A DNA stretch of 64,000 bases from Bolinopsis microptera (taxonomy: Eukaryota; Ctenophora; Tentaculata; Lobata; Bolinopsidae), in contig NC_087084.1 of NCBI RefSeq assembly GCF_026151205.1, forward strand, positions 720,312-784,311. The letters are read 5' to 3'. Made by a program: the position numbers and the translations under genes. Of this stretch, positions 8,743-60,114 are shown piece by piece. The notes under the pieces are model-generated. The model did not search any database and had not been told where the DNA came from. It worked only from the letters and a program-made list of their open reading frames with translations. The first letter of the stretch is position 1; every line of letters starts with the position of its first letter.

Positions 8743-11700
8743 AGTTTAGTAGTGAGCGAGTGTTGTGCTCCCAGCTTGGTAAGCTGTGAGACCCACAGAG
8801 GGGCGTGCTGGTCCAGGTCAACGCGCGAGCACGTGTAGAACATGCAAACTGGGTGGGTACCGTCTCCCTCTCTGTACGTGGGGTTATTCAATTAGGTAAT
8901 TAGTGGGTTATTCAATCAGGTAATTAGTGGGTTATTCAATTAGGTAATTAATTATTCAATTATGTAATTAGTGGGGTTATACAATTAGGTAATTAGTGGG
9001 TTATTCAATTAGGTAATTAATATTCTTTATTGTAAATAGACGATCAATTTTCATTTTATTCAGGTTGGTGTTCAAGTAAATAAAAACTAATACACTTAAT
9101 AAACAAAATTACCTTTGTTGTGCAGCTGTACAGATGGCTTAAGTGACGTAACAAGAGAAAGAGAAAGAGAAAGTGAAAGTGAAAGTAGCTAACCTAACGT
9201 TGCTCCCTGAGAGATACACAGTAGCACCTAGACACGTAACACTCAGGTGAGACATGACGTGTAGTCGTGTGGTGGAGACAGCACGTTTAGGGTTGGGTTG
9301 GGCGGGCAGACGCTCAAACAGGGCCCACATCGTCTGGGAGAGGTATTATATTATATTTACTTATTTACTTTAGGTAAAATAGCACAAAATGTCTGGAAAT
9401 TCAAAGTTTAACAATTATTACTTTGCAGTCTCGAATGTGAAGGAGACTGAGTGATCGAGGAGCTGAAAGAGAGAAAGAACAAGGAAAGAAAGAGAAAGTG
9501 AAAGAGAAAGAAAAAGCAAACCTTGGAGTTAAAGAAGAGGGAGAGGGAGTTGAGGATGGAGTTATTAAGGAATACAGTAAACTTGTTAGCTACCATTCGT
9601 ATCTCAAACAACTCGGTCTCGTTTCTTTCCAATCTGTCCAATTCGTCCCTGATTTATAGAGATCATTTATTTAATAACTGTAATTTATTTTAATAACTGT
9701 ATAGATTAAAACTTTAAAACTATGTCTTCATCGACCGCCTTCACTATTTTCGCTAATAAAGCATGTACAACCAAACTCTGATTAACCATTTCCTCCAAAC
9801 TTTACGGTAACTCGGGGTTAACCTCACTTAATATTAGCACTATATTGATTATGGTGTGTTGGTGTACAAGATACAAGATATAACGCTGTTTATATTCACC
9901 ACACCATAGTGCAAGAAAATTTCAAGTGAAAGGGATGATAACAATATAGTAAAGGTTGTGTATTTGTACTCACAAAGGGCGCTGTTTGAACTCAGGTATA
10001 ATGTTTAACATACAGAGCCACAGAGCACGGAACTTGGTGAACTTTAGTGTCTCCTCCTCGGTAGCGTGTCTCTTGTCCTGAGTTAACGGAGTTTTCTTTA
10101 ATTAACTTAGTTTTAATTAATTAATAAGTTAATGTAGTTTTCTTTAATTAACTTAGTTTTAATTAATTAATAAGTTAATGTAGTTGTATTTCATTAATTA
10201 ATTACCATATTATTTACACAGATTGTATCACCTCATAGTCTAGTTGAGGCAGCAGGTCGAACAGGGAGCCCTCTGTTAATGTACTCATAGTATCCACCTC
10301 AACATCTCCGAACACAAACATTTGCTCCTTCTGAAACCATTAATCATTATTAACATTGTAAATCAGGGTTTAAAGGTTTAATACCATACTTAAATCAGGG
10401 TTCATGGCATACCAAACTTGTAAAGGGAAAATTAAATTTTGGTTTTCGGTGGTTGGTTTCTGTAAATGGACTAATTTTCTGTTAAAGGGCTGGCAACTCA
10501 TTAAACAACTAAATAACTAACTCATTAAATAACTAACTCATTAACTCATTAAATAACTAAATAACTAAATAACTAACTAAATAACTAACTAACTAACTAA
10601 TTTTCACTAATTAACTAACATGGTGAGAGAGGTTTGCAGTTAAACTACACACTCCCAATGTGAAATGAGAGTAGTAGTATCCCTTAGCAACGCACTCCAT
10701 CGCTAAACCTCGTATCTTCATGTTCAGGAACGGAGTGAACTGGTACTTTGCTGACCTGAGCCACATTTATAATTTAACTAAATATATATATAATATATAA
10801 TATATATATAATAATATAGAGAACATAGTTATTTGCGATAGTTAACCAAGAACACACTGGTTACCCCTAGTAGATTATTAACCGACATTAGGCCATTATA
10901 TTATCAAACCACCAGTACAGTGTTCACTGATGTATATAAAATACAGTTCATTCTCCAAGAATCAAACCTAGAACAACATATTGATCTACACACTGTGACA
11001 TCTTACTATATATAAAGCGAGACGATATATATATATATATATTTGTGCCATTTTACTGACACCACGGCATCAACTTTAACGCGACTTTCCGCAAAAACCG
11101 TAAAAGATATACAACTGAAACTTTTTTGACTGGGTCAAATGCTTTTATGCTTTTCAAATCAGCATGAAAAAATAAAAAATTGGCCAAGGAATAAGAGTTT
11201 TAGAGCCCAAAATTTGGACCCCCAAGTGGTGTCAAAAACGCGAATTAAATAGGTAATAATTATTTTAGTCTCTTGAGTCTTGACACCATTTTAGGGTTAT
11301 ACGGGTTCCTGCTAGTAAAGCTAACCTCTTTCTGCGCTGAGCTAGAACTTGTGTACATGAGATATTGAAACTCTTAACAAAGAGAGAGAAGTTGAAGAGC
11401 ATTTCAGCAGGAGGAGCGGGGGAGACTCCGTAGTCCTCATATGCTGCCATTCCTAGCATACTCCACCCCCAACCAATCCAACCTGGGGACATATAATATA
11501 TCCTTGTGTTTGACTACAGAACACAAAATATATATCATTGTGTAGGACTACAGAACACAAAATATATCATTGTGTTCGACTACACAACACAGAATATATA
11601 TCATTGTGTTTGACTAAATTACATAAAATATATCTGTGTGTTCGACTACACAACACAGAATATATCCTTGTGTTTGACTATTACCTTCCTCGTCAGCTGA

Positions 11701-14279
11701 CATGACGGGAGGGGGAGCAGGGTGGACTACTTGTTTAGTTGTGTCTGAAGAGTTGGTCAGGTAGTACAATCTTCTTAGTAGCACTATCAGGGCAGGGAAC
11801 TGTGGGGGAGCAAGTTATAGTTTCACTAACTATATATAATGTATATATATAATATACATAGTTAGTTATAGTAGTGTTACCTATAGTTACTATATATAAT
11901 ACAGGGTATACAGCAAGTTATAGTTTCACTAACTAAATTATATATATAATATTGTATATATATAATATAGTTACTATATATAGTTCCGGTTGTAAATACT
12001 AGTCATGTTTGTTATTAAGGGGGCCGGGGGGGGGGGGGGTCTTCTTAAGTTAATAAACCAGAGTAATCTACTTGCAGACCTGTTGATCGGAAATGTTGAG
12101 GTTAATATCGTCACACAGAACATGTACGAATATAGCGGAGGGAGAGAAGGAGTAGACGTTAGGGAAGGTGAACAGAGACCTGCAGTTTATGTGCGCTCTG
12201 TAAAGTACTGGCTCTTCGTACACTTCTATTCGACCTGCAAATAGCATACATATAAGATACTGTTATTGGTTACCTTAAATCTGAAATTAAATCTAATATA
12301 AGATACTGTTATTAGTTACTATAGTTACTGTTATTAGTTACCTGACTATGGTTACTATAGTTACTGTTATTAGTTACCTGACTATGGTTACTATAGTTAC
12401 TGTTATTAGTTACCTGACTATGGTTACTATAGTTACTGTTATTAGTTACCTGACTATGGTTACTATAGTTACTGTTATTAGTTACCTGACTATGGTTACT
12501 ATAGTTACTGTTATTAGTTACCTGACTATGGTTACTATAGTTACTGTTATTAGTTACCTGACTATGGTTACCATAGTTACTGTTATTAGTTACCTGACTA
12601 TGGTTACTATAGTTACTGTTATTAGTTACCTGACGCGCTGTTTCTATCCAGACAGATAGTGAGATCTACCAGCTCAATAACTCTTCTCAGAGTCAGTTCA
12701 GGAGACTGTACATCAGAGAAGGCCTGGCTCCACTCAGAGTTTACAGTGTACATACCTGGCGTGTTTTATCTATTTTTATACAATATGTGCATTTGTAACA
12801 ATACATTTTATAATATAATATTGTCATATCATCATGTCTTTACTGAATGTTATTTGTTTATGCCAGCGATTTCAACCATCTGCTTTTATATTTGTTCAAA
12901 CAAATATCAATTTTGTAAGATGAAAAATGTTAGATTATGAAAAAATGTGTCGGAAAACTCACAAGCTGATTTGATGTTGACTGATAGAACAATGTCATCT
13001 TCAATATATTTGAAAATCAGGTTGTTCACGTGAATTTCTACGTTGTTCAGTATCCGCTGCAAAGATAATCTTTCGTTAGCAAAATACAACTTACAGTAAA
13101 ACCATATTCACTGTTTTATTTTCCCCAAATTGTGCACTGAATTAAATACTACATCTCTGTTTATCTACAATTAATTGGTAATACAGTGACACAGCTAAAC
13201 AAGAGTTGTTACCTGAGTGAGAAGCTGCACATAGCTGGGTGCAACAGCTTGTTGTCCGCTAGCATCAGATATACCACTATCTGATTCCTTGTCTTCTTCA
13301 TCTTCTGCTGTACTTGCTGCTTCTAGTTGAGGATGTAATGAGGTTAATGTCTGAACAATTGACATCTTAATGACTCTTTTTATAAAATACATAGATTCTG
13401 TTTAGGTTTATTCAAAGTGTTCAATTTCAATCCAAACCCACATCAAGAAGTAACATTAACATTCAACACATAAGCAGGTAATTGTGCAGCTATAATCAAA
13501 CACCTCTTTTAGTTTCCTCTAGAGGTCTATAAGTCAAGGAACACTCCAAAGTGTTGAGCGTGATAACAACTGAATCAGACCCAAGACTAGTCCAGGGAAT
13601 GTGTATCTTTAGCTCGTGTATCCTACCGCTCAGAAATTTGACTGGGAATAGGAACTCCTGATGTGGCAAAGGAGTTGTTAAGTTGCTCGTAACAGTATTA
13701 TTATATCAGTTTTGTAGAAGCTTAGGGTTGTCTCAATAATATGCAAAAAAACTAGAGACGAGACTCAAGTTATTCTGCATTCATTCACATATAATTTTGA
13801 TAAGCTGAAGATAATTAATAGATCACAATTGGCAAAGAAAATATTAAGAAATTGTATAGCAGTATAATGCACATCCATCATCAACTTATAATTAAGATTG
13901 CAGAATTTAAGATGTTACATTCTGTCACCTGTTCTAAGACGTCAAGTTTGAGCTCCAGATTCTTTAACAACACATCTCCTCCCCAAAGAGACACACCCAG
14001 ATCATTTGGGGAGAGGTTCTGAAACACAAATCATGAGCTGACAAAAAATTATGGAGCAGAAATGTAGTTAAGGAACAAATAAGTTGGTTTTTTTTTCTGT
14101 GTTGACGAGGGATTAACTCATCCTAAAAATTCCTTGCACAAATACTCAATAAGTGAATTTGAACAGTCCTCTGGAAAGAAACAGTTGACGTATCCCTACA
14201 CATTTGGTAGATGTTTGCTAACCTTGATGTACTTGTCCACATAGGACATCAAGAGAGGAGTAATGTACTTCTCCAACAT
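8743..14279 (-). CDS. VPS13B: VPS13B homologue, N-terminal part (15 exons, incomplete at 3' end)
   Basis: VPS13B is a bridge-like lipid-transfer protein of the Golgi and endosomes (Cohen syndrome protein in humans). Exons in transcription order: 14279-14223, 14018-13929, 13657-13504, 13397-13213, 13056-12963, 12755-12630, 12234-12080, 11799-11685, 11482-11326, 10755-10620, 10330-10232, 10077-9974, 9648-9594, 9333-9199, about 8867-8743. All have GT-AG borders and reading phase stays continuous, giving about 595 codons. The start MLEKYITPLLMSYVDKYIK followed by NLSPNDLGVSLWGGDVLLKN is the chorein N-terminus. FLSGRIHELKIHIPW, YIEDDIVLSVNIKSA and GWIGWGWSM match family blocks I remember. The ATG at 14279 matches the family start. 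The gene does not end here: exon 15 ends in phase 2 at satellite array 1. The matching continuation is at 60114-48318. Weakest calls are the acceptors of exons 4 and 15. Confidence 0.93.
8884..9020. repeat. About 24-bp repeat upstream of the exon-15 acceptor
   Basis: Five or six imperfect copies of GGTTATTCAATTAGGTAATT with spacer AGTGG. Read on the gene strand this is CACTAATTACCTAATTGAAT, ending beside the acceptor near 8868. CACTAAT resembles a branch site, so the repeat multiplies the 3' end of the intron. Confidence 0.8.
10094..10190. repeat. Two 48-bp copies abutting the exon-12 acceptor
   Basis: Two near-identical copies of TTTCTTTAATTAACTTAGTT followed by TTAATTAATTAATAAGTTAA lie directly beside the 3' splice site at 10078. 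The acceptor-proximal sequence AAAGAAAACTCCGTTAACTC resembles the repeat's AAAGAAAACTACATTAACTT, so the unit includes the intron end. Confidence 0.75.
10490..10620. repeat. TTAGTTA-rich short repeat at the exon-10 donor
   Basis: A run of CTAACTAAATAA/AACTCATT motifs ends at the exon-10 donor. On the gene strand the donor GTTAGT at 10619 begins a run of GTTA-containing motifs, so potential 5' splice sites are repeated. Confidence 0.7.
11014..11240. repeat. Dispersed repeat, copies at 11014 and 51033, partial copy at 24270
   Basis: AAAGCGAGACGATAT and ACTGACACCACGGCATCAAC with about 60 further bases recur at 51026-51137 in another VPS13B intron. The 3' part, including TTTGGACCCCCAAGTGGTGT, recurs at 24270-24330 in the VPS13A/C intron. 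No coding capacity or clear terminal repeats were seen; it may be a decayed transposon. Confidence 0.6.
11515..11684. repeat. About 45-bp repeat at the exon-8 donor
   Basis: Four imperfect copies of a unit containing CCTTGTGTTTGACTACAGAA and ACACAAAATATATATCA. It starts within about 5 bases of the exon-8 5' splice site at 11684 and extends into the intron. Confidence 0.8.
12306..12629. repeat. 36-bp repeat, about 9 copies, starting at the exon-6 donor
   Basis: On the gene strand the unit starts GTAACTAATAACAGTAACTA and ends ACCATAGTCAG. Exon 6 ends TCAG/GTAACT, and each unit recreates TCAG/GTAACT, so about nine consecutive donor-like sites follow the real one. Each unit also begins with GT and ends with AG. 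Confidence 0.92.
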
Positions 14280-18597: not shown

Positions 18598-19239
18598 ATG
18601 GTTGAAACCTTGACTGAGCTTCCGTCAGAACTACTTTACAAAGTCTTGTCGTACCTGGATGTCAAGGACATTCTCCAAGTCTTTGCGTGTTGTTCAGACA
18701 TTTATGAACAATTTTCTACTGATATTCGGCTGTGGAGTTTCCTTTGTTTTCGTGATTATGGCATAAAGCCAGAGTTTGTAGAGCATTCAATGATATTTTA
18801 TCAAAGTTTGCTTTTTCCTAACAAGGTTATGATTGGCAACACATTTAGATGTGGTTCAATGATTGTTATAACAAACAAAATGTCGAAGGGGCTATCAGGA
18901 TTTTATCAAGTTTGGGGCCCAGATGAAGACAAAAAGCCTCTGTTTGAAATCACCATGAACTCCGAAGGGACTATCATTTCAACTTGTTGTCTAGATTCAG
19001 GTGATTTGGATACAATAAGTGAACAGGAATCAAATTTTCGCTGGGAAGAAAATCACTGTGACTCTCTGCATTACTGTTCTGTTGAAGTTCGCTTATCCCG
19101 GAAAGCCCCCAGCCGTCATCCTGAGTACGCAGAAAATCCCTACCATGTGCTACATTTCCTATGTGATAAAGGCTTGTTGTATAGATTTAAAGTCATGGGG
19201 GTTAAAGGAGCCTTTTCTGGAAACACACACAGCTTTTAA
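18598..19239 (+). CDS. F-box domain protein, single exon, 213 aa
   Basis: F-box proteins usually link substrates to SKP1-CUL1 ubiquitin ligases. Residues about 5-50 have the F-box pattern: LPSELLYKVLSYLDVKDILQ, then a CC(S)xxY stretch, then LWSFLCFRDYG. The rest (about 55-213) is unlike WD40, LRR or Kelch repeats and I do not recognise it, so the substrate class is unknown. The ORF is uninterrupted and the start has purine at -3 and G at +4. It lies between two divergent VPS13 genes, 4.3 kb from the VPS13B start and 0.9 kb upstream of the VPS13A/C start on the same strand. Lack of introns between intron-rich genes suggests a retrocopy or a naturally single-exon gene. Confidence 0.8.
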   Translation: MVETLTELPSELLYKVLSYLDVKDILQVFACCSDIYEQFSTDIRLWSFLCFRDYGIKPEFVEHSMIFYQSLLFPNKVMIGNTFRCGSMIVITNKMSKGLSGFYQVWGPDEDKKPLFEITMNSEGTIISTCCLDSGDLDTISEQESNFRWEENHCDSLHYCSVEVRLSRKAPSRHPEYAENPYHVLHFLCDKGLLYRFKVMGVKGAFSGNTHSF

Positions 19240-20151: not shown

Positions 20152-23100
20152 ATGTTTGAGAGGGTTTTAGAGACTGTTTTAGAAAAAGTACTCGGAGAGT
20201 TTGTACAGGATATAAACAGCAAGGACCTTAAACTTGCTGTATGGAGCGGTCAGTTAATTTTGTAATTACTTTCAAACTTTGAAGAGAGTTTTTCAAATCT
20301 CATCATTTGTTTCTCTCTAATGTGACACTCTGAGTTTCCATATTTTCAAAGTCTAACATTTTTTATTTTCAGGGAATGTCGTCCTCAAGAACTTACGACT
20401 CAAAGCTGAGGCATTAGTGCGTACTGCGTAATTATAGTTAAATAATTATATGATCTGATAAGCAACCAGCATTATACAGGGTGGGCCAAAAGTCAGTGTG
20501 CAAACGTTGGGTCTTATACCTCCGCCGTGTTTTATATTTGAGAGCTGTTGCTTTGCAGATGGCATACTGTACTTACTGGTTCGAGGATTCCGTCGTCAAA
20601 ATTTGAAAATTCGAATATTTTAGACCACGCCCATTCAATATTAAAACACCTATATTGTTTTCTCTGAACATGCTGAACGCCTAATTTTTTCAGAGACGGT
20701 AGATTATCAAATGTTGCATATGATCCGAAAACATGAGGCAAAACGGATTAGAAATGACGAAGTTATCAAGCATTTTGTGTATCTCGTTAACAAAATTGAC
20801 TGGGTGATTATGTGACACCGTGACACGACACCTTAATTGGGCACCCTTAACAATTCCCATAATGTTTAACGGGGTAGTTAACGGGGGCACCTTATCACGT
20901 GATTAGGTAAACCAATCACCTGATCACACGTAATGAATAAACTCGTTATGCTTCATATCTCGGTCATCTGAGAAGCTACAGTTCTAATTCTTTCAGGACA
21001 AACGTAATTCGAATGGCCAAACACAATTCAATAACATTTAGCTTGATCCGACTATCCAAACTATCAAATAAATGTGAAAATGAACCTCCATTTGAAAAAA
21101 ATGAACGCGAATATTTTTCGAGTTGACAAATACCTCGAACCAGTGGTGGTACTAAGTCATACCAGAGGGAAGTATTTCAATTGAGCACTCAGTGACTGAG
21201 CTATTAAGGCCAACGTTTGCACACTGACTTTTGGCCCACCCTGTATTATGGCACAACATTATATTTATCTAGGAATATCTTAAATCTTCATACTGTTGCT
21301 GGTATTTTGTCACTATACTGCACTATTTACTATCTGATACTGACTATTATTACAGGCTAAATTTGGTATTTTGTCACTATACTGCACTATTTACTATCTG
21401 ATACTGACTATTATTACAGGCTAAGTTTGACCTGCCAGTGTTTGTGTATGCTGGACTGATAGGGTCTCTGGAACTACAGGTGCCATGGAAAGCACTGTGG
21501 ACTGCTCCTACCAAAGTGGTTGTTGAGGACCTTGTTTTATTAGTCGTTCCTAAAGAAGCTGCTCCTTACAAGTTAGTCCAAACCTTGTTCAATTAATTGT
21601 TAATATATTATATATAAGCAGTGAAACTATTATATTGTATGTGGAGTTTTTCAAGGATAAGGTTATAATAATAGCAGCTGAAAAGTTTGAAAACCATGGA
21701 AAAAAGCAAAAGCATCAAATTATTTTTGTATTATGCCATTTATGAATGTTCACTTTGTTCCAGTGAAGAGAAGGCGAAGAAGGAAGAGAGAGCAAGAAAG
21801 AAGGCAATGTTACAAGCAGTAGAGGAAGCTCAGACCCGCATGTCTGAAACACAGGGAAAGGGACAGAAACAGACCTGGGCTGAGAGCCTCATCACTGCTA
21901 TCATCAAGAATCTGGAGGTAAAGTCCTGCTATTTATTTAAACAATTAGTAGTGATAGCAGGGACTAGGGAGGTAAATTCCTGCTATTTATTTAAACAATT
22001 AGTAGTGATAGCAGGGAGGTGGTTTTTGGAAAAACGCGAATTCAGGGCCGTAAATATAAGCACTGGAGTTAATTTTTGAAACTTGCAAATTTCAGGTTTC
22101 AGCACTGTTTGATTCAGTTGCTGAACCTCTAACCTGTAACCACCCCTCCCAGCTAAATATAAAGAACATCCATATCCGGTACGAGGACCCGGACTCTGGT
22201 TACGCAGCTGGAGTTACACTGGATCACTTGTACGCGACTACTACTGATGAGATGTGGTCACCTGCTGTTATCAGTAATCAGACAATTCAGAGGATATTCA
22301 AGGTAACTCCTTATATGGGCATCACGTGTCTCTACATCTCCTTATATGGGCATCATGTGTCTCTACATCTTCTTGTATGGGCATTGGGCATACCGTGGTT
22401 TCGCTTCTTGTATCAGCTCATTTCTTTTTCTTTTCTGTGTTCTAAATACATTACCTCCCAGCTTGCGAAGATAGAGAACTTCTGTGTATACTGGAACAAC
22501 CCCAGTTTGGAGTTGTTCAACCTCCCTCAGCACAAAATAGAAGCAGAGTTGTTGAAACTCATCGTCACCAAGGCGACCCCAAACTCTCAACATAACTTCG
22601 GTTAGCATTAAAGGCACCATAACGTCATGATGCGTGGTCTGCAAGATTATTTCCTACTTTAATGTACAATAAGTACATACTTTGAGAGAATTCGTATCCC
22701 ATTTTATTTTATTGGATTAGGGTAAGGCACGTAATTTTGTCAGGGTACCTAATTTTGTCATTTTGCTCTGAAAAACTGCCTCGGCTCGGAATTTCAGCTT
22801 GAAAGAAAAGGTTTGTGTATAAAAAGAAAGCTTAGACTTTGCTGAAACTGCTCCTACAAAGTTTAAGTTTCTAGCTCTTTTGCATCTGTGTCAAAAATGA
22901 AGGCGAAACTGTTAACCCGAAAAATAAATAAGATCCTTAAAGTTTTCTTAAGGAATTTTCAAAATTTTGATTTATTGCTATTTCAAAAGTAATTGAGCTA
23001 GCTTCATGCCATTGCATATTTCAAATATCTTCTACAGCAGAAGTATACGTACAAATTTTCAAGTCTCTAGCGCAATTATTGTTCAAGTTACAGAGGGTGA

Positions 23101-26100
23101 CAAAATTAGGTTCGATTTTGCCAAAAGTACCTAATTTTGTCAAAAAAATCGACCTTTCTCAAATTTCTTGTAAATCACAGATTGTGTTGAAAATGGCCTT
23201 ATAGAACTATTCTGAAGTTTTTTTGCCCATAGGATATGTATAAGGCACTTATAATAGCATTTAAACACTTATAATAGCATATTTTCGCCGAGAAATATAT
23301 TGTAATTCTGGGTTTTAAAGAGCTATTGGTAAATATAGTTTCGTGAATCAGTAACCAATATTGATTCATGCGTCATAGAAAGTTTTCAAGATGCCAGTGG
23401 TTTCAGGGGCATTTGGGGGCTATTTTCTAAGATTAGATACCCAAAAAGTGTCATCTTTTCATCAAGCTACAAAACTATGAAAACATCATATCTTTGGGAT
23501 TTTTGAGGTCAATGTTGGTAAAAAAGCGCTCGAATGATGCATCCAGGTAGTCTAAAATACCGAGAAACGGTTAATTTTTGCACAATCTTCAAGTGACAAA
23601 ATTAGGTTCGGGGTGACAAAATTAAGTAAAGTCACCTAATTTTGTCATTTTTTCAAAATAATTTTTTTGAACATCTTCAACCCCAGCAATTTCGATCATT
23701 TTTGTGTTAGAACTTGCCTAGACTGTCTACTATAACATGGTGGAGGTTTCATCTAAATCGGAATTTCAGACGAGGTTAAAACCCATGGTTTATATCAGGC
23801 AGTCGGAAAATTGCCAAAAAATGACAAAATTATGTGCTTTACCCTATGTAATGAGGTATGCATACTATTACTACTGTTGTTACTGCTATGTTACTATGTT
23901 GAATGAGCAATATCCCAGTGATCCACCCTATGGGATGTGAAGTGAAGATGGTGATAGATCCCAGTAACAAGGTTGTTATGGACGTTCCCAAAGCTACAGC
24001 CAGTGTTCACTTCTCCTCTCTCACAACCGAGGTAATACTAATCACGTGGGTAATGTGTGGTGTCCTTATATAGGCATCACGTGTAGTATACACTCCTTAT
24101 ATGGGCATCACGTGTCTCTACAGCCAGTGTTCACTTCTCTTCTCTCACAACCGAGGTAATCACGTGGCAATTATTACTGAACCATAAGTTTTTTGGCGTT
24201 ATGCCATATATGCCGGTTACAGAATGAGAGGAATGTAATTCCTAGCCAAAAAATAATAACTTTGGAGTTTAGGTCCCCAAATTTGGACCCCCAAGTGGTG
24301 TAAATATTGTTTTATCACCACTTTAGGGTAAGATAATGTGGTTTAACACTAACTGTCCCCAGGTGCGTAAGACGCAGTACCTTGATACGATGTCCCTGTT
24401 AGACTCGATGGAGCGCGGAAAGAAGAAACAACCCTTCGCTAAGTGGCACCCTGGTACCCCTATTAAGGGGAACGCTAGGAAATGGTGAGTTACAAAGGGG
24501 GGGGGGGGGGGGGGGGGGGGTGAGTTACAAATGTGGTATCTTTAAAGCCGGGTATCTCCTTCTCTCACTAGCAATCTTGTGGAATAGTCTTGAACTATAT
24601 CCGTATCGGGCCCCCTCTCTTGTGTAAAAGCGACCGTCGCTTTTGATGACGAAAAGTGGCCCTTTTGGGTCACTTTTTTTTTAAACAACGTCGACTTTTG
24701 GTCGCTTTTTTCACGTTGAGGCCGCTTTTTGGTCGCTTCTGGTCGCTTTTTAAATTTTGGTCGCTTCTGGTCGCTTTTAGTCGCTTTTGGTCGCTTCTAG
24801 TCGCTTTTTGGTCGCTTCTGGTCGCTTCTAGTCGCTTCTAGTCGCTTTTTGGTCGCTTTTGGTCGCTTTTTGGTCGCTTCCGGTCGCTTTTGGGTCGCTT
24901 CTGGTCACCTTTTAGGGTTCATGTCGCTTTTACACAAGAGAGGGGGCCCCGTATCTTAGATAGTTAGATGCCTCTTATCAGTCTAGATGAAGCTTATAAT
25001 ATGATGCCATTGGAACACCCCCCCATATGATTGGACCTCCCCTCCCCCCATATTATGATGCGAGCTGTGTTGTTGTAGTAATGGTAGTAATGACACACTA
25101 CAATACAAATACGCGTGTAAAACATTGTCTAGTGTCATGAGCAGCTTGCTCTTTTGTACTACTCAATACACTGAGCTAGTTTATAAAGGAGCAAAATGTG
25201 ATTATAATTAATAATTGTAGTTGTAGTTTTACAGAACTATAGTTACATGGAATTTCATTGACGATTGAGAGTAATGTTGTTAAACTTCATTAAAAGTTTA
25301 TTAAATTATATTATATAATAGTATTATATATTTAATACCTTATAAAATAGTTATAGAATAAATGATTCGAGTTTCTCCGAAATAACGGGACTAAGTAGCA
25401 GCACACTTTGTAAAATATTACTTGCTCCTTTATAAATGTAACCAGGTGGCAGTATCTACACCGGTATTGTGTAGAGACGAGAGTAAAGCGCAGGATAATC
25501 GCGTGGAGATGGAGCAGTATCAGGAGACACAGGGAAATGTGCAGAGAGTACACTAACCTCAGGTTAGTTCTTATAGTGATTATTATTTTACTAGTATTAA
25601 ATCCAGATTCACCTGAATTTGTTAAGCAGCATAAAATATAACACATTAAATGAACAATGTTACTAAAGATCAGACAACTGCCCAGAGTAAGTTACTTGTA
25701 CACTACTACTATATTACATATATAATATTATATACTGTATCTCCATTAAATAACATGTTACATGATTTGTTGGTTTTTAACAATAATTGTGTGTAAAGTG
25801 GCTTACGTAATATTATATAATACTAGTGTAACCCGAGCCTACGGCCGGGATTTCAATATCACAGTTGAAATGCAAAAGTATAAACCCGCCTATTATATTT
25901 TACAAAAACGCATTACATTTTCGTAGAGAGAGTGGAAGAGAGGGAGAGTAAGTGAGACGCTTTAGCATGGGAGTCTTACTATATTACTTAGTTTACACTT
26001 AATTACTGTATAAATATAATACTAATTAATTACTGTAACGTGTAGAAATATGTTAAACTCTAAGGACAGTATAATATGCACATTGCATATTACTATTAAC

Positions 26101-33056: not shown

Positions 33057-33087
33057 GGAAGCTTATTTTGTTGTTATTTTATATCAG

Positions 33088-33203: not shown

Positions 33204-33245
33204 TTATTGTAAATCCTTGTTTTAATTACATATTTTCTAAATATA

Positions 33246-34987: not shown

Positions 34988-35030
<43 letters not shown>

Positions 35031-51300: not shown

Positions 51301-54300
51301 CACATGTTACTACACATGTTACTACACATGTTACTACACATGTTACTACACATGTTACTACACATGTTACTACACGTGTTAATACACAAGTTACTACACA
51401 TGTTACTACACATGTTACTAACACATGTTACTACACATGTACTACCATGTTACTACAACATGTTACTACACATGTTACTACTCATGTTACTACACATGTT
51501 ACAAAACATGTTACTTTCCAAAGTTACTACACATGTTAAATAAACATGTTACTAAAACCCCTGTTTACTACACGTGTTTTTCTACACGTGTTACTTAAAA
51601 CATGTTTTCTACACATGTTTCACACATGTTACTACACACAATACACTGCACTAGTTACCTGTGGTAGATACTTGAGTGAGAGGAGTGTCCAGACTACTAG
51701 CCACACTAAACGAGCGTGTAAGGGAGGCCACTACACGTAACACTAGTCTTATCTGCAGTGGTAATCAATTAGTTAATTAGCAAACTAATTGGTTAGTTGA
51801 CTGGGTAATTGCAGTGGTGATTAATCAATTAGTTAATTAGCAAACTAATTGGTTAGTTGACTGGGTAATTGCAGTGTTAATCAATTAGTTAATTAGCAAA
51901 CTAATTGGTTAGTTGACTGGGTAATTGCAGTGTTAATCAATTAGTTAATTAGCAAACTAATTGGTTAGTTGACTGGGTAATTGATTAATGAATACAATAA
52001 TTGTGTTGATGGAATTCGGAGAGATATGAACTGTATTATGAACCTATATAATATGAACCTATACCTGATCCAGATGTACAGCTACTGATATGGGATGGGT
52101 GTCAGCGTGTAAACAAATGTCATTACTTCCTCTGCTGCCCAGAGCTAGTACCACCTGAGAAACATGTCTCTTAATTATTTTAATGTTAATTTAATTAATT
52201 ATTAAGTTATTTTAATGTTAATTACTTGATTAGCAATATTAGAAATATTAGCATCCTTATAAAGATGTATAATTGAAGTTAAAATGACAGATTTTTGATT
52301 GAACATTTTATTTATTCGCTCCAAACCGAGTAATAACTGTACGATATGCAAATTTTCCATCGGTTTATTGATTAATTAACTAATTAGCTAATTAGCTCAC
52401 GTCAAGAGACAGAGGAGCAAGGAGCGGTTGAACAGTGTGGAGACGGTGGTACAGCCAAGTTGCTGAGGGATATCTTCCAGGGTAGAGTTTTTATAATCAG
52501 TAGGATTACCTACTAGTCCACCTGTTGTAGTTACTGATAGGGGTAATTCCCTGGGGAGAAAGGGTTTTATAATCAGTAGGATTACCTACTAGGTCCACCA
52601 GTTGTAGTTACTGATAGGGGTAATTCCTGGGGAGAAAGGGTTTTTATAATCAGTAGGATTACCCACTAGTCCACCAGTTGTAGTTACTGATAGGGGTAAT
52701 TCCTGGGAGAAAGGGTTTATAATCAGTAGGATTACCTACTAGTCCACCTGTTGTAGTTACTGATAGGGGTAATTTCCTGGGGAGAAAGGGTTTTATAATC
52801 AGTAGGATTACCTACTAGTCCACCTGTTGTAGTTACTGATAGGGGTATTCCTGGGGAGAAAGGGTTTTATAATCAGTAGGATTACCTACTAGTCCACCAG
52901 TTGTAGTTACTGATAGGGGAAATTCTGGGGAGAAAGGGTTTTATAATCAGTAGGATTACCCACTAGTCCACCAGTTGTAGTTACTGATAGGGGTAATTCC
53001 TGGGGAGAAAGGGTTTTATAATCAGTAGGATTACCTACTAGTCCACCAGTTGTAGTTACTGATAGGGTTAATTCCTGGGGAGAAAGGGTTATATAATCAG
53101 TAGGATTACCTACTAGTCCACCTGTTGTAGTTACTGATAGGGGTAATTCCCTGGGAGGAAAGGGTTTTTATAATCAGTAGGATTACCCACTAGTCACCAG
53201 TTGTAGTTACTGATAGGGGTAATTCCTGGGGAGAAAGGGTTTTAAAATCAGTAGGATTACCTACTAGTCCACCTGTTGTAGTTACTGATAGGGGGTAATT
53301 CCTGGGGAGAAGGGTTTTATAATCAGTAGGATTACCCACTAGTCCACCTGTTGTAGTTACTGATAGGGGTAATTCCTGGGGAGAGAGGGTTTTATAGTCA
53401 GTAGGATTACCTACTAGTCCACCAGTTGTAGTTACTGATAGGGTAATTCCTGGGGAGAAAGGGTTTTATAATCAGTAGGATTACCTACTAGTCCACCAGT
53501 TGTAGTTACTGATAGGGGTAATTCCTGGGGAGAAAAGGGTTTTATAATCAGTAGGATTACCTACTAGTCCACCGGTTGTATGTTACTGATAGGGGTAATT
53601 CCTGGGGAGATAGGGTTTTTATAATCAGTAAGGGGAGGATTACCCACTAGTCCACCTGTTGTAGTTTACTGATAGGGTAATTCCTGGGGAGAAAGGGTTT
53701 TATAATCAGTAGGATTACCCACTAGTCCACCAGTTGTAGTTACTGATAGGGGTAATTCCTGGGGAGAGAGGCATATTACAGACTTTTAGAGAGTTACTTT
53801 AACTCACTATGAAGTTACTATTACTCACTATAAAGTTACTATAACTCACTACAGAGTTACTATTCCTCACTATAAAGTTACTATTCCTCACTATAAAGTT
53901 ACTATTCCTCACTATAGAGTTACTATTCCTCACTATAGAGTTACTATAACTCACTATAAAGTTACTATTCCTCACTATAAAGTTACTATTCCTCACCTGA
54001 GGGTTGATAAGTCCACAAGTTGTAGTCTGGTTAGTAACGAGTAGAGCAGGTAAGCAGATCAGCACTGCGTCCAGATCCGCGCTGTTCTGCGCGTACTCTA
54101 ACACGTCCCCTTGAGGTGAGCCACACCCTGCTGAGCTGACTAGCAGTACTATTGGGGACACCACCATCTGGAGAGAGGAGGGAGGTTAGTGGGATGTTAG
54201 TGGGGAGGTTAGTTGGGAGGTTAGTGGGGAGGTTAGTGGGGAGGTTAGTGGGGAGGTTAGTGGGGAGGTTAGTGGGGAGGTTAGTGGGGAGGTTAGTGGG

Positions 54301-57300
54301 GAGGTTAGTGGGGAGGTTAGTGGGGAGGTTAGTGGGAGGTTAGTGGGGAGGTTAGTGGGAGGTTAGTGGGGAGGTTAGTGGGGAGGTTAGTGGGGAGGTT
54401 AGTGGGGAGGTTAGTGGGGAGGTTAGTGGGGAGGTTAGTGGGGGAGGTTAGTGGGGGAGGTTAGTGGGGAGGTTAGTGGGGAGGTTAGTGGGGAGGTTAG
54501 TGGGGAGGTTAGTACTCTAACACGTCCCCTTGAGGTGAACCACACCCTGCTGAGCTTATTAGCACTACTATTGGGGACACCACCATCTGGAAGGAGAGAG
54601 GAGGTTAGTGGGGAGGTTAGTGGGGAGGTTAGTGGGGAGGTTAGTGGGGAGGTTAGTGGGGAGGTTAGTGGGGAGGTTAGTGGGGAGGTTAGTGGGGAGG
54701 TTAGTTGGGAGGTTAGTGGGGAGGTTAGTGGGGAGGTTAGTGGGGAGGTTAGTGGGGAGGTTAGTGGGGAGGTTAGTGGGGAGGTTAGTGGGGAGGTTAG
54801 TTGGGAGGTTAGTGGGGAGGTTAGTGGGGAGGTTAGTGGGGAGGTTAGTGGGGAGGTTAGTGGGGAGGTTAGTGGGGAGGTTAGTGGGAGGTTAGTGGGG
54901 AGGTTAGTGGGGAGGTTAGTGGGGAGGTTAGTGGGGAGGTTAGTGGGGAGGTTAGTGGGGAGGTTAGTACTCTAACACGTCTCCTTGAGGTGAGCCACAC
55001 CCTGCTGAGCTTACTAGCAGTACTATTGGGGACACCACCATCTGGAGAGAGGAGGGGAGGTTAGTGGGGATGTTAGTGGGGAGGTTAGTTGGGAGGTTAG
55101 TGGGGAGGTTAGTGGGGAGGTTAGTGGGGAGGTTAGTGGGGAGGTTAGTGGGGAGGTTAGTGGGGAGGTTAGTGGGGAGGTTAGTGGGGAGGTTAGTGGG
55201 GAGGTTAGTGGGGAGGTTAGTGGGGAGGTTAGTGGGGAGGTTAGTACTCTAACACGTCCCCTTGAGGAGAACCACACCCTGCTGAGCTTATTAGCAGTAC
55301 TATTGGGGACACCACCATCTGGGGGGAGAGAGAGGAGTTTAGACTCAACTTTTATCATAAAGTTGAGGGGATCAGAGTTTAGACACAACTTTTATCATAA
55401 AGTTGGAGGTATATACTCCTATATTATAGTATCCTTACCTTCTTATTTTATATTATAAAGCATGTTTTAATTTTACCTGCACAGCAAGATACTCCACTAC
55501 ATGCCACAAACTAGTTACCTGGTTACCTGGTTACCTGGTTACCTGGTTACCTGGTTACCTGGTTAATTTTACCTGCACAGCAAGATACTCCACTACATGC
55601 CACAAACTAGTGCTTTCCACCGAGTCAGTGACACGTGACGAGGAGCCACTAGCTGACACGTCACGTGGTATGACGTCATGTGCTGTGACGTCACGCGGTA
55701 TGACGTCATGTGTTGTGTCGTCATCAGGAGAGTACCGTGTGTCGGGGACTTTATTGTCTGGAAGAGTGGTCATTATACACCTCAGTCCTCAGAAAATGAG
55801 CATGTAGCATGTAACCTCAGTCCTCAGGGGTGTAGTACCTCTGGTCCTCAGTATCATTATAAACATACTCAAACTCTCAACAATTAGAGCAACTAATCTG
55901 TTTAATTAACCTGATGGTGTGGAAGCAGGAGTAGTGAAGTTGTTAGGAGAGGGGCCTGTGGAAGAGGGTGCTGTGGAAGAGGGAGCAGTGGAAGAGGCGG
56001 GTGTAGAGCTAGCTACACTTTCTAGTGAACAAGACCTGAGGTTTATAATTGAGTATCAGTAACCAACTAGTAACCAACTAGTAACCAACTAAGGATGCTA
56101 CTGTTTAAACTAAACTAATTTCAATAAAGTACTTTAAAGATTTTGCATTCGATTTTGAAAATCTTGGACCTCGTTTTTTGATGATTTTTCGAGGTCCACG
56201 ATTTTCAAAATCGAACAAAAAAATTTAAAGGCCTATCTCAAAATTCTGTCGGGCTCATTTCTTCTAAATGATCCCTAGAACATATCCTGAAAGTTTCAGG
56301 GTGATTGCTCAAAGAATGTAGGAGAAGATAGATTTTTAGACTAGATTTTCAGGGCACGCGATCAAAAATCGCTGGCCCAATACAATTACACACACGCGCT
56401 GACCTTTGACCGGCAATAATTTTGGCTAGGAACGATATTTTTCCACGGGATCAAAAGCATCTGATAGATATTACCCCCCTCTATCAGAAACAACTAAAAA
56501 ATCGATTTTGAGACAATTTCCATGAAGACCACCCCCTGGCCCTTAATAATGTTATCGTAGTGTTGAGTAGTGGTGACTACTAAAACCGCTCACCTCACAT
56601 AAGTACCAGAGTTGACAGGGGGCTGATAAGCAAGGAGAGCAGGAAGGGCTTTGTCCCAACATATCACTACACCGCTACTGTGCACTATTAACACTGGCCT
56701 GTCTGATGGGGTCGAACCTGAGCAAAACACAAGGATATATTTTATAAGGGAAAATGTAAAACACAAGGATATATTTTATAAGGGAAAATGTAAAACACAA
56801 GGATATATTTTATAAAGGAAAATGTAAAACACAAGGATATATTTTATAAGGGAAAATGTAAAACACAAGCATATATTTTATAAGGGAAAATGTAAAACAC
56901 AAGGATATATTTTATAAAGGAAAATGTAAAACACAAGGATATATTTTATAAGGGAAAATGTAAAACACAAGCATATATTTTATAAGAAAAATGTAAAACA
57001 CAAGGATATATTTTATAAAGGAAAATGTAAAACACAAGGATATATTTTATGAAGGAAAATGTAAAACACAAGGATATATTTTATAAAGGAAGATCTAAAA
57101 TATCATTGAAACTCTTTAAAACACGCAGATTTTTTACCAACGTAAATTTACGAGACAAGTGCAATTCTTCTTGTAATATGATAAATATTAGAACGGTTAT
57201 GATAAAGTTATAGAACTGGGTACCACGTGTACTTACTGGTGGTAAAGGGAACGTGAGGCCACTGAACAGTAACACTCAATAAACTGGGTACCACGTGTAC

Positions 57301-59960
57301 ATCAGAAGGTTGCTCCAGCGACCTGAACAGTTAGGTGACATAGGTAGGTGATTACTTACTAATTGATAATTCTTTACTTATTAACATCAGTTACTAAATT
57401 TTGTAACCAAATTTTGTAAATTCAAATTTAATCATTAGTTTAGTAGTGATTATATTACCTGTATACATCTTTAGTGAAGTAGGGCCCAGATAAAATGCAT
57501 ACCGCCTCATCCGCTGTAACGAAATAATTGTTAGCACATAATTTAGTTAGCACATAGTTTTATAGTTTAGTTAGTACTTTAGTACAAAGTTCATATCCAT
57601 TGTTCATTCTCGTTGTAGTCTCTGACATTTAAATAATTTATGTTTTGCACTATTATTTTACAGCAGTTATTTGTTAATAAAATAAAAAATAGCGAGAATA
57701 AAATAAATCTGATCAGCTAACCAAAATATAAGCCAATTAAAAATCAATCTATACTAAATACAGGGTGGGCCAAAAGTCAGTGTGCAAACGTTGGCCTTAA
57801 TAGCTCAGTCACTGAGTGCCCAATTGAAATAATTTGTTCTGGTATGACTTACTACCACCACTGGTTCGAGAAATTTGTTTGATAACTTCGTCATTTCTAA
57901 TCCATTCAACATTTAATAATCTACCGTCTCTGAAAAATTAGGCGTCCACCATGTTCAGAGAGAATAAGATAGGTGTTTTAATATTGAATGGGCGTAGTCT
58001 AAAACACTCGAATTTTCAAATTTGGCGACGGAATCCTCGAACAAGTAGGTACAGCAAAGCAACAACTCTCAAATATAAAACACGGCGGAGGTATAAGACA
58101 AACTTTTGCGCACTAACTTTTGCCCCCCGGCCCCCCCCCCCTGTATATTTATCAGGAGATAATAATAATAAATAATTAAACATACTAAATTTGTAGATAA
58201 AGAGCCCCCCCCCCCCCCCGCTGTATATTTATCAGGAGATAATAATAATAAATTATTTAACATACTAGATTTGTAGAGAAAGAGCCCCCCCCCCCTGTAT
58301 ATTTATCAGGAGATAATAATAATAAATAATTAAACATACTAGATTTGTAGAGAAAGAGCCCCCCCCCCCCTGTATATTTATCAGGAGATATTAATAAATA
58401 ATTAAACATACTAGATTTGTAGAGAAAGAGCCCCCCCCCCCCCCTGTATATTTATCAGGAGATAATGATAATAAATAATAACACATACTAGATTTGTAGA
58501 GAAAGAGCCCCCCCCCCGCTGTATATTTATCAGGAGATATTAATAAATAATTAAACATACTAGATTTGTAGAGAAAGAGCCCCCCCCCCCCCTGTATATT
58601 TATCAGGAGATATTAATAAATATTTAAACATACTAGATTTGTAGAGAAAGAGCCCCCCCCCCTGTATATTTATCAGGAGATAATAATAATAAATATTTAA
58701 ACATACTAGATTTGTAGAGAAAGAGCCCCCCCCCCCTGTATATTTATCAGGAGATAATAAATTATTTAACATACTAGATTTGTAGAGAAAGAGCCCCCCC
58801 CCCCCCCCCTGTATATTTATCAGGAGATAATAAATTATTTAACATACTAGATTTGTAGAGAAAGAGCCCCCCCCCCCCCTGTATATTTATCAGGAGATAA
58901 TAAATTATTAAACATACTAGATTTGTAGAGAAAGAGCCCCCCCCCCCCTGTATATTTATCAGGAGATAATAATAACATAATTAAACATACTAGATTTGTA
59001 GAGAAAGAGCCCCCCCCCCCCCCCCCTGTATATTTATCAGGAGATAATAATAATAAATAATTAAACATACTAGCCCCCCCCCCCCCCCCTGTATATTTAT
59101 CAGGAGATAATAATAATAATAAATAATTACTAGATTTGTAGAGAAAGAGCTCAGCGCCCCTGTATATTTATCAGGAGATAATAATAAATAACATACTAGA
59201 TTTGTAGAGAAAGAGCTCAGCGCCGCGCAGTGTCAACATAGCAGAGTTAACTACCGTAGTTTGACAATACTTCATCCCAATGTGCGAAACACACAGTTCT
59301 ACACTCAACTGCTCTTCTGTGATATAATAGTGTTATTAACTAATTAACTAATTAAATAATACCATATTATTAGTATCAAATTAATGGTTGTTTTATTAAG
59401 GGTTCCCTTAAAATCGCGGTTTAAATTTATTTCATTTGAAAATTGACAGCCTCTTAAAAAACCTGCTCCCTTAATCACTTTTTCTTAACTGACATAACCC
59501 TAACCTATATCTAGAGCTTGCTGGGCTAGTGTTCTGAGTGCAGTGTCTAACCTATATCTAGAGCTTGCTGGGCTAGTGTTCTGAGTGCAGTGTCTAACCT
59601 ATATCTAGAGCTTGCTGGGCTAGTGTTCTGAGTGCAGTGCCGTGTAACAACTCCCCCTCCAACACTCCACCACACAGTTTGTTAGTCCAGTAATATAGGA
59701 AGTGATAGGAGAGGTGAACTTGTGGCATTGTCAGCATCACCGTGATCTGGGGCACTTCTAGTCGCACCTCTAATAAACCTTGCATTGTGGAGACCCTGAG
59801 GGAAGTAATAATAATAATAATACTATAGTATACTATATAATACATACTAAGTAGATATTATGGAAGAGGAATTAAAGTGAAAGATAAAGTAGACCCTGAT
59901 AACTGTACGTAAGTTTGTAAGAATGTAGCAGGTAAGACTTTGTGAGGCAGAAGATAAGTG

Positions 59961-59991
<31 letters not shown>

Positions 59992-60114
59992 AAGAGAAAT
60001 TTACAAACCAGCTCAGAGGGTAGCAATACACTTTGATAACAGTTTGTAGGAAGGTAGCAGGTAGAATAACTATACTGGACAAAATCTTCAGGTCTCTTAC
60101 TGAACAGAATCCTG
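48318..60114 (-). CDS. VPS13B: VPS13B homologue, middle part (about 14 exons)
   Basis: Exons in transcription order: 60114-60009 (3' end uncertain), 59795-59599, 59316-59197, 57513-57459, 57322-57237, 56717-56594, 56035-55911, 55757-55573, 54167-53997, about 52550-52401, 52154-52065, 51752-51659, 50953-50820, 48418-48318. From the second to the ninth exon every phase matches. Family blocks I recognise in order: [53 protein letters not shown], a Ser/Thr/Pro-rich linker, [33 protein letters not shown]. The first exon needs one base to complete a phase-2 codon, as left by the exon ending at 8743. This is therefore the expected continuation of the 8743-14279 part, yet it lies on the other side of it. 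The tenth exon carries frame problems in a noisy stretch. No later exons follow before array 2. Confidence 0.9.
48555..48725. repeat. (GAGGTATAAGT)n repeat
   Basis: About 12 copies of an 11-bp GAGGTATAAGT motif and variants (GAGGTTTAGT, GAGGTTACTT). The same repeat resumes at 50720-50800, so the TGTCC element appears to be inserted inside it. Confidence 0.88.
48752..50721. mobile_element. TGTCC foldback element, about 2 kb, inserted in the 11-bp repeat
   Basis: The left end GGGGTGTCATGTCCGTCTAT is mirrored at the right by ATAGACGGACGTGACACCCC; TATAAG occurs on both outer sides. Both ends contain runs of TGTCCGCCTA/TGTCCGTCTA and a shared stretch, CCTTTTTGGATTCTATGAGA. The middle is a 1.4-kb purine tract. 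No transposase. It lies in the intron between the VPS13B exons at 50820-50953 and 48318-48418. Confidence 0.75.
49010..50430. repeat. Purine-rich (GGAGGACTGA)n tract, 1.4 kb
   Basis: Plus strand is almost only G and A with regular CT dinucleotides: GAGGAGGA, ACTGAGGAGG and ACCCAGGAGG blocks. Strand asymmetry is extreme. Minus-strand ORFs rich in Ser and Pro arise from the composition. Confidence 0.92.
51026..51137. repeat. Second copy of the dispersed repeat at 11014
   Basis: Shares AAAGCGAGACGATAT and ACTGACACCACGGCATCAAC with 11014-11115 and ends in an AT-rich run. It lies between VPS13B exons. Confidence 0.65.
51171..51645. repeat. (ACATGTTACTAC)n 12-bp repeat beside a donor
   Basis: About 37 copies of ACATGTTACTAC, decaying toward 51640, about 12 bases from the donor of the VPS13B exon at 51659. 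On the gene strand the unit is TGTAGTAACATG, containing GTAACA, a weak match to the exon donor GTAACT. Confidence 0.93.
51768..51985. repeat. About 55-bp repeat beside the acceptor at 51753
   Basis: Four copies of TAATCAATTAGTTAATTAGC, AAACTAATTGGTTAGTTGAC and TGGGTAATTGCAGTG. On the gene strand the unit includes ACACTGCAAT, a variant of the real acceptor CCACTGCAG, so the repeat multiplies the intron end. Confidence 0.9.
52490..53775. repeat. 75-bp repeat, about 17 copies of a 3' splice site plus exon start
   Basis: On the gene strand the unit is CTTTCTCCCCAG/GAATTACC, continuing through ACTACAACTGGTGGACTAGT and AATCCTACTGATTATAAAA. The copy nearest 52400 continues into the VPS13B exon, so each unit carries the acceptor and about 60 bases of exon start. 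The 75-bp unit is 25 codons and open. Scattered one-base indels break the frame between units; some look like sequencing error. Confidence 0.9.
53797..53996. repeat. 21-bp repeat starting at a VPS13B donor
   Basis: About nine copies of GTTACTATTCCTCACTATAA. On the gene strand the exon ends CTCAG/GTGAGGAATAGTAAC, and the unit repeats GTGAGGAATAGTAACTTTAT, so donor-like GTGAGG is presented about nine times. Confidence 0.93.
54176..55322. repeat. Composite array: 12-bp repeat alternating with copies of an exon start
   Basis: Runs of GGTTAGTGGGGA (about 75 copies in four blocks) alternate with three extra copies (54511-54590, 54966-55045, 55243-55322) of the acceptor and first 76 bases of the VPS13B exon at 54167. 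Each copy keeps CCAG/ATGGTGGTGTCC and stops at the same base. On the gene strand the 12-mer is CCCCACTAACCT, a branch-site-like CACTAAC plus pyrimidines. The GEVS/GRLV repeat ORFs on the plus strand are artefacts. Confidence 0.93.
55475..55612. repeat. 97-bp duplication of an exon end and donor, with (TTACCTGG)6
   Basis: TTTTACCTGCACAGCAAGAT through CATGCCACAAACTAGT occurs at 55475 and about 55567. The second is the real end of the VPS13B exon at 55573. Between them lie six copies of TTACCTGG, which is CCAGGTAA on the gene strand, a strong donor motif. Confidence 0.92.
56148..56215. repeat. Hairpin-forming inverted repeat
   Basis: TTCGATTTTGAAAATC plus TGGACCTCG is mirrored after a 16-base loop by CGAGGTCCA plus GATTTTCAAAATCGAA, with one mismatched pair. 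It lies in a VPS13B intron. It may be the centre or end of a foldback element extending toward 56530. Confidence 0.8.
56726..57095. repeat. 33-bp repeat beside the acceptor at 56718
   Basis: About 11 copies of AAACACAAGGATATATTTTA TAAGGGAAAATGT, ending directly beside the VPS13B acceptor. On the gene strand the last unit reads ATATATCCTTGTGTTTTGCTCAG, so the unit includes most of the intron end. Confidence 0.93.
57761..58143. mobile_element. Mariner-type MITE, internally deleted copy
   Basis: Starts TA then CAGGGTGGGCCAAAAGTCAG and is the inverted, shortened relative of the element at 20477-21243. They share GTATGACTTACTACCACCAC (in complement) and CACGGCGGAGGTATAAGAC. The right end is eroded: the expected GGCCCACCCTG has become a run of C before CTGTA. 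It adjoins the C-run array that follows. Confidence 0.88.
58130..59226. repeat. About 75-bp array joining a MITE end to an exon end (about 15 copies)
   Basis: Unit: a run of 7-19 C, CTGTATATTTATCAGGAGAT, AATAAT-rich spacer, then CATACTAGATTTGTAGAGAA AGAG. The last part, on the gene strand, is the 3' end of the VPS13B exon at 59197 with its donor CTA/GTATGT. The C-run plus CTGTATA is the MITE terminus. Each unit thus spans exon end, donor, intron start and MITE end. Confidence 0.92.
59505..59640. repeat. 47-bp repeat, three copies of an exon end and donor
   Basis: TGTCTAACCTATATCTAGAG CTTGCTGGGCTAGTGTTCTG AGTGCAG occurs three times. On the gene strand each copy is the last about 40 bases of the VPS13B exon ending at 59599, followed by donor GTTAGA. 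47 is not a multiple of three, so only one donor keeps frame. Confidence 0.93.
59859..60060. repeat. Partial duplication of the exon at 60009-60114 and (GTGAAA)n
   Basis: CCTGCTACCTTCCTACAAAC on the gene strand at about 60060 recurs as CCTGCTACATTCTTACAAAC near 59935. Between them is a (GTGAAA)7 tract. The duplication makes the exon's 3' end uncertain. Confidence 0.7.

Follow-up and report, generated by a model that had tools for sequence, protein, structure and literature searches.

Tandem duplications at splice junctions of VPS13-like and motor-protein genes of the ctenophore Bolinopsis microptera cross donors more often than acceptors

Organization of the VPS13-like locus

The window analysed here is a 64,000-nucleotide stretch of the genome of the ctenophore Bolinopsis microptera (C13:720312-784311, where C13 denotes contig NC_087084.1), which contains segments of VPS13-like genes whose splice junctions are frequently overlapped by tandem repeats. 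The assembly comprises 264.65 Mb in 232 contigs. Published values for B. microptera are 265 Mb and 13 chromosomes (PMC11797021) and 97.23% of bases in 13 scaffolds (PMC10232365); the latter study prepared CLR, HiFi, or Iso-Seq libraries for its ctenophores and sponges. Exon models of the window, which were checked against paralogs, include 37 exons and 34 introns in three gene segments. Segment A (exons A1–A12, positions 9974–14279) is encoded on the minus strand with its N-terminus at the right, segment P (exons P1–P12, 20152–32968) on the plus strand, and segment C (exons C1–C13, 48318–59795) on the minus strand; the donor (5' splice site) of exon C13 is only a candidate. The joined exons A1–A3 match the Pfam family VPS13_N with 126.8 bits, compared to the cut-off of 80 bits. 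The matching pieces of segment P score 67.6 and 71.2 bits, each under the cut-off, and reach 80 bits together with their neighbours. Segment C gave no VPS13 match in Pfam searches of positions 50.7–60.7k and of exons C10–C13. A search of the PDB with one reading frame gave no match.

The locus is duplicated. Copies of the A and P exons are located at C13:792–819 kb, and a copy of the C exons at 699–707 kb; the paralogs that support the exon models are 64–76 kb distant. The VPS13-like locus at C13:694–832 kb (the window and regions L014–L019) has the structure of a segmental duplication. Substitution rates at replacement (dN) and synonymous (dS) sites were calculated from gap-free exons, and codons reading as a stop in either copy were skipped. 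Segment A and its paralog at C13:794–798 kb (12 exons) differ by dN of 0 over 1113 sites and dS of 0.055. The corresponding values for segment P are 0 and 0.047, based on seven of the twelve exons (P1–P4 and P6–P8), as P5 contained gaps and the paralog of P9–P12 was absent from the stretch examined. Nine of the thirteen exons of segment C (C1, C7, C9, and C12 were excluded for gaps) differ from the paralog at C13:699–707 kb by dN of 0.013 and dS of 0.105, a ratio of 0.12. The absence or scarcity of replacement changes between the paralogs shows that the modelled exons and their frames are genuine, and that these genes are strongly constrained even though they carry arrays. Another exon, ending at position 8743, differs from its paralog at six positions, all of them synonymous, according to an alignment read by eye. 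An exon P5 start at 22096 and the initial donor of exon A11 were contradicted by paralog indels and homology and were dropped. The order and strand of the segments suggest that each minus-strand gene seems to join segment A to segment C of the neighbouring copy through a giant intron containing a 52-bp satellite.

Repeats and duplications at the splice junctions of the window

Tandem Repeats Finder (TRF) listed 114 rows in the window. A previous sequence-only reading of the window had proposed that intronic repeats of two VPS13 genes begin at or contain splice sites, and 18 of the 19 junctions that it listed indeed touch a tandem repeat or a local duplication. Twelve junctions are positioned inside the repeated sequence and six are within 6 nt of it. 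The junction at 48317, with a donor score of -1.0, was the one left unconfirmed.

Nine of the twelve enclosed junctions are donors. The 52-bp satellite (1–8745, minus strand, 168 copies in the window) reaches 3 nt into the exon ending at 8743, and a 36-bp array with 8.9 copies (12315–12634, minus strand) reaches 5 nt into exon A6 at junction 12629. On the plus strand, a 54-bp duplication (21914–22017) covers the donor of P4 at 21917 and includes 4 exon nt. The end of exon P7 with its donor at 24031 is followed by an insertion and a repeat of the exon end (23994–24160; 38 exon nt). A 132-bp array with 3.6 copies (31614–32098) extends 41 nt into exon P11 at 31654, and a duplicated 38-bp segment comprising the last part of exon P12 and the donor at 32968 (32936–33057; 33 exon nt) has its copies 84 nt apart. 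The duplications at 24031 and 32968 are not TRF arrays. The remaining donors belong to segment C on the minus strand. A 49-bp duplication (55467–55611) covers the donor of C7 at 55572 with 39 exon nt, and its copies are separated by an 8-bp array (55514–55565), which itself begins 7 nt into the intron. A 73-bp array with 15 copies (58131–59216) extends 20 nt into exon C2 at 59196, and a 47-bp array with three copies (59500–59639) extends 41 nt into exon C1 at 59598.

The other three enclosed junctions are acceptors (3' splice sites). A 64-bp duplication (21300–21429, plus strand) covers the acceptor of P3 at 21419 with 10 exon nt. A 75-bp array (52489–53771, minus strand) includes 45 nt of exon C9; this junction had been listed as 52550, and the acceptor was modelled at 52534. 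The start of exon C8, at 54168, has three more copies upstream (79–90 bp, 95–98% identical) within a region that also contains a 12-bp array (54180–55245, minus strand), and the TRF array stops 12 nt short of the junction. The evidence on coding by the C9 array is divided: the array of the paralog has an open frame of 542 codons, yet its final copies fall out of frame with exon C9, and the copy in the window contains at least 27 stops in each frame.

Three of the six abutting junctions are donors: an array filling the A8–A9 intron (11495–11680, minus strand) is 4 nt from the donor at 11684 and 12 nt from the acceptor, a 31-bp array (22307–22384, plus strand) begins 4 nt past the donor of P5 at 22303, and a 21-bp array (53792–53996, minus strand) begins exactly at the donor of C8 at 53996. 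The other three are minus-strand acceptors, where a 46-bp array (10081–10202) stops 3 nt before that of A12 at 10078, a 56-bp array (51754–51983) 1 nt from that of C11 at 51753, and a 34-bp array (56724–57100) 6 nt from that of C5 at 56718.

The units differ between the introns, and a single spreading repeat family was rejected, as the sequence-only reading had maintained; its view that all the units are unrelated has to be qualified, since the 31-bp unit next to junction 22303 recurs in the insertion at 24031. The assignment to two VPS13 genes applies to segments A and P and was not borne out for the searched parts of segment C.

Exons C6 and C7 contain minisatellites with 15- and 30-bp units (55948–55997 and 55658–55723). 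These units are in frame, as expected, because splicing gives no shelter within exons.

Contact of arrays with junctions compared to chance

For comparison with the window, we sampled genes of the CCT, myosin, dynein, and kinesin families, picked blind to repeats, in 51 regions of the genome. Genes with a single exon, several widely scattered pieces of myosin genes, and some pieces of dynein and kinesin genes were not included. In the CCT and myosin genes, 70 neighbouring pairs of exon matches gave 57 candidate junctions, 47 of which were within limits; the dynein and kinesin genes contributed 105 of 153 pairs. Together, the 152 sample introns and 34 window introns make 186 introns with 110 arrays. 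Two null models were used. The simple null places whole arrays at random positions inside their own introns, whereas the geometric founder-unit null places one unit at random in the pre-array intron and allows overlap with exons. The P values shift with the array threshold; several thresholds were tried, and the values are uncorrected.

Eight of the 41 arrays in the window touch or cross a junction, compared to 0.39 expected from the simple null and 6.8–8.2 from the founder-unit null (P 0.35–0.64). Seven arrays cross a junction (6.6–8.0 expected), five at donors and two at acceptors (3.3–4.0 expected per side). The striking appearance of the window is thus largely geometry, as a unit would span much of the ancestral intron. 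Because the introns are short and the units long, a random duplication often covers a junction. Thirteen arrays lie within 6 nt of a junction, compared to 7.9–9.5 expected from the founder-unit null (P 0.012–0.077).

None of the 16 arrays in the 47 CCT and myosin introns crosses a junction (1.1–1.2 expected); one is within 6 nt and two are within 12 nt. In the independent set of 105 dynein and kinesin introns, 10 of the 53 arrays are at or across a junction. The distances of array edges from junctions therefore differ from random placement (0.31 expected), and the founder-unit null predicts 5.9–6.2 contacts (P 0.035–0.057). The pattern is wider than the high density in two genes that the sequence-only reading had described. 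Eight of the 152 introns of the CCT, myosin, dynein, and kinesin genes begin inside a donor-crossing array. Examples are a dynein gene, in which 53 exon bases and the donor are present in 11 additional copies, and two kinesin genes, in which the exon end and donor have 51 and 24 additional copies.

Arrays run through donors and mostly halt at acceptors

Among the 110 arrays in 186 introns, 13 cross donors and three cross acceptors, with 6.7–7.6 expected per side. Under the founder-unit null, the excess at donors has a P of 0.010–0.028 and the deficit at acceptors a P of 0.037–0.076; equality of the two sides has a P of 0.021. Arrays that end 0–27 nt inside the intron show the reverse distribution, with 13 at donors and 21 at acceptors (Fisher P=0.006 for crossing versus adjacent). 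Arrays reach the acceptor and mostly halt there, but run through donors. In the genome sample alone, the numbers of crossing and adjacent arrays are 8 and 6 at donors and 1 and 10 at acceptors (P=0.033). With a limit of 12 nt, the difference has a P of 0.020 in the pooled set and 0.070 in the sample. Relaxing the limits to 179 and 186 sample introns left the eight donor and one acceptor crossings unchanged. No TRF array crosses both the donor and the acceptor of one of the 186 introns, as intron gain by tandem duplication, with two splice sites derived from duplicated copies, would predict.

Six crossings are outside the TRF counts: the satellite at 8743, whose intron is incomplete, the duplications at P7, P12, and C7, the exon copies at C8, and the acceptor of C1 in the left paralog, which is repeated 12 times. 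All six would add four donors and two acceptors. In the paralogs (29 introns with 17 arrays), three arrays cross a donor and one crosses an acceptor.

The kinesin region L052 contains an acceptor-crossing array of short units in the intron before exon GNSMTLMIACCSP. Nearly every copy has TTTTCAG followed by GAGGTAACA, and the array resembles a string of tiny introns.

Paralogs and the origin of the duplications

Among the donor-crossing arrays, the exon contains between 0.07 and 0.96 of the reported unit. A mechanism that cuts at the junction would produce a constant offset; the spread of the edges therefore indicates that the arrays are not anchored on the junction. The array at A6 has an offset of 5 nt in both paralogs with 8.9 and 18.9 copies, and that at C2 has an offset of 20 nt in both, with 15 and 3 copies. 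For the C9 array, the copy numbers of the paralogs are 17 and 24 and the offsets 45 and 49 nt. The arrays at A6, C2, and C9 are thus minisatellites, with head-to-tail copies that differ in number between paralogs. The edges of the paralogous arrays in the C10–C11 intron, at 1 and 53 nt, are 52 nt apart.

The recurrence of the A6 and C2 arrays with equal offsets and different copy numbers in paralogs 64–72 kb away argues against extra copies having been made by the assembler. Two-copy junction duplications of 53–55 bp (L029 and L036), which would fit in one read, also speak against such an artefact. Some arrays are noisy, as at window positions 34–47.5k (76% match and 11% indels), and the garbled stretch of low quality at L019:6480–6740, which follows a 56-bp array, may be an assembly fault. 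As a general explanation, an artefact is highly improbable. The remaining part of exon C1 could not be located in L018–L019.

The paralogous introns P2–P3, P4–P5, and P7–P8 are without the duplication and represent the single-copy state. Intron gain was therefore rejected for these three sites, where the paralog has each intron without the duplication. The P4 duplication has the motif GGAGGT on both sides. The P7 insertion joins 43 bp copied from the exon end to 31 to 61 bp that match the P5–P6 intron about 1.7 kb upstream. The P4 and P7 duplications look like products of slippage and template-switching repair, although the polymerase cannot be named from this evidence.

Donor copies inside the arrays

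In all eight donor-crossing arrays of the sample, the exon-proximal donor gives a continuous alignment with the protein family (offset of 0 in seven and of -1 codon in one). Seven of these arrays contain decoy donors, which are further copies of the donor identical over nine nucleotides, and two kinesin genes have 49 and 24 of them. Variation among copies was counted in seven arrays with at least three decoys, one of them represented by both paralogs; L029, L036, L048, L052, C1, P4, and the satellite were left out. Three of 71 donor columns are variable, compared to 69 of 363 other columns; P11 contributes 34 of these 69. Random windows of nine columns contained three or fewer variable columns in 3.5% of trials (mean 10.1; one-sided P=0.035). 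In the satellite (167 copies), GT is present in 0.90 of the copies, compared to 0.98 for the rest, and is positioned near the edge of the aligned unit.

Reported units are divisible by three in six of 16 crossing arrays, one of the six being L053 with decoys 53 bp apart. Because this share is close to the one in three expected by chance, the decoys, taken together, are apparently kept out of the message. As a class, they appear to be neither used nor harmful, and the splicing machinery apparently chooses among the copies by position and not by sequence.

Model of array formation and its alternatives

Based on the positions of the arrays, their paralogs, and the intact decoys, we propose that local duplication is random and is filtered by splicing, which tolerates extra donors downstream and resists extra acceptors upstream. 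We give this model a probability of about 0.6. Short tandem duplications would start at near-random positions in genes by slippage or template-switching repair, as the microhomology and the insertion resembling another intron suggest. Duplications located wholly within exons would be purged unless in frame. A duplication covering a junction would leave one intact exon end and splice site in the native place. At the 5' splice site, the extra copies would be located downstream in the intron and the exon-proximal donor would stay in use; such a duplication would be nearly neutral and may expand to dozens of copies. Arrays would often overlap donors because the introns are short and the units long. 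At the 3' splice site, the extra copies would be located upstream and tend to be lost, so the arrays would halt just before the AG.

Several observations weigh against this model. The acceptor deficit is weak on its own (P 0.04–0.11 for the pooled sets, or 0.05–0.54 across threshold settings). Donor crossings in the sample exceed random placement, with eight observed and 3.4–3.6 expected (P 0.013–0.019), and among strong arrays of the sample (TRF score of at least 80), eight of 28 cross a donor, compared to 1.9–2.1 expected (P 1e-4 to 2.4e-4). Neutrality alone would not lead to this 2–4-fold donor excess over geometry. In the short ancestral introns of the sample alone, the excess is non-significant (2, 3, and 5 observed versus 1.5, 1.9, and 2.65 expected). 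The donor excess is probably real, depends on the threshold and on the length of the ancestral intron, and is incompletely explained. Neutrality also does not account for the arrays within 12 nt of a junction, which number 17 of 41 in the window (8.9–10.7 expected; P 2e-4 to 0.004) and 18 of 53 in the dynein and kinesin genes (8.4–9.0 expected; P 8e-5 to 3e-4). The P4 and P11 repeats are open reading frames in the frame of the exon, so decoys may be used there, and the low variability of the donor columns could mean that decoys are kept and not merely harmless.

The same numbers bear on pure geometry, in which duplications would be random and neutral outside exon interiors and neither splice site would matter. 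The window total of seven crossings, on both sides together, and the donor counts in short ancestral introns are near its expectation. However, geometry predicts equal crossing of donors and acceptors, contrary to the 13 and three observed and to the comparison of crossing and adjacent arrays. Neither the donor counts of the sample (P 1e-4 to 0.02) nor the crowding within 12 nt of junctions follow from it, and we regard it as unlikely.

The donor excess of the sample could result from mutation linked to donors, if breaks, R-loops, or pausing near the intron start during transcription raised the rate of duplication there. This mechanism predicts neither the edges spread across the unit without a fixed offset nor the crowding of arrays at acceptors (21 within 27 nt), and is quite improbable. 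The sequence-only reading had suggested a process that repeatedly duplicates junctions, which the donor excess favours in part and the offsets do not. It had alternatively suggested that repeats are tolerated only at junctions; 94 of the 110 arrays cross none, whereas a tolerance restricted to one side of the intron fits the numbers of donor and acceptor crossings.

The low variability of the decoys and their long identical runs in the two kinesin genes would also be expected if extra donors were favoured, with a run of U1 sites aiding splicing or blocking premature polyadenylation, and selection retaining and expanding the arrays. Arrays that are young and derived from the exon side would nevertheless show the same pattern, the one-sided P value is modest, P11 supplies half of the variable other columns, and GT is less well kept in the satellite than the rest, albeit near the edge of the aligned unit. 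Selection for extra donors is very unlikely. We also consider it doubtful that donor-straddling minisatellites constitute a distinct genome-wide class, formed or kept at 5' splice sites above chance, in which identical donors would be maintained, the exon-proximal one used, and the array would serve as a harmless or useful runway for U1.

Other features of the analysed regions

A single-exon gene of an F-box protein is located between the two VPS13-like genes at 18598–19236, and its counterpart in the paralogous region is in two parts about 6 kb apart. An insertion of about 780 bp at 20470–21250 resembles a DNA transposon with 53-nt terminal inverted repeats (89%) and is missing from the paralogous intron; a piece resembling this element was seen by eye near 57760–58120. 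Sequences at 26689–26800, 27960–28072, and 28827–28941 look tRNA-like by eye, and ARAGORN detected none. Adjoining stretches of a myosin gene in region L007 (3212–3404 and 3455–3686 in oriented coordinates) both match the same part of the profile (positions 105–167 and 102–167), and are likely a tandem exon duplication.

Comparison with known systems and implications

Intron gain by tandem duplication is represented, in PMC4974935, by the model of Rogers 1989, ATP2A1 (Hellsten 2011), and potato RdRp. As in B. microptera, a segment with splice signals is duplicated and tolerated because splicing removes the extra copy. In contrast, three of the introns described here predate the duplication, as indicated by their single-copy paralogs, and the array is at one edge of the intron. 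The same paper cites Zhu and Niu 2013 for fission yeast arrays of 24-bp exonic units containing AGGT, which splicing excises as an intron. Several tandem exonic copies are removed as an intron in both organisms. However, the fission yeast intron lies between copies of a single exon segment, whereas the copies in B. microptera comprise the exon end and donor of an existing intron, number up to about 50, and occur in several genes. Human introns within tandem repeats have dual-specific splice sites, as described for UBC in Duan 2024 (PMC10809524), and splice sites are likewise repeated inside tandem arrays. The copies of UBC are used stochastically, whereas 10 of the 16 units here break the frame. 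Regarding the AG/GT core of the UBC type, AG directly precedes the donor GT in seven of the 13 donor-crossing arrays and is missing from six. Among the open-licence papers listed by our literature searches, none was seen to describe arrays that straddle donors or arrays in ctenophore introns.

The choice among identical competing donors has been studied mostly with artificial duplications. The arrays of B. microptera provide natural identical donors, up to about 50 nine-nucleotide copies in a row, in conserved motor-protein genes. The rule of donor choice, whether by first copy, last copy, or exon definition, could be read directly from the RNA of such arrays. For gene annotation, the choice of a decoy donor by a predictor would often put the model out of frame. 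The difference between donors and acceptors offers a natural gauge of the tolerance for extra copies at each end of an intron.

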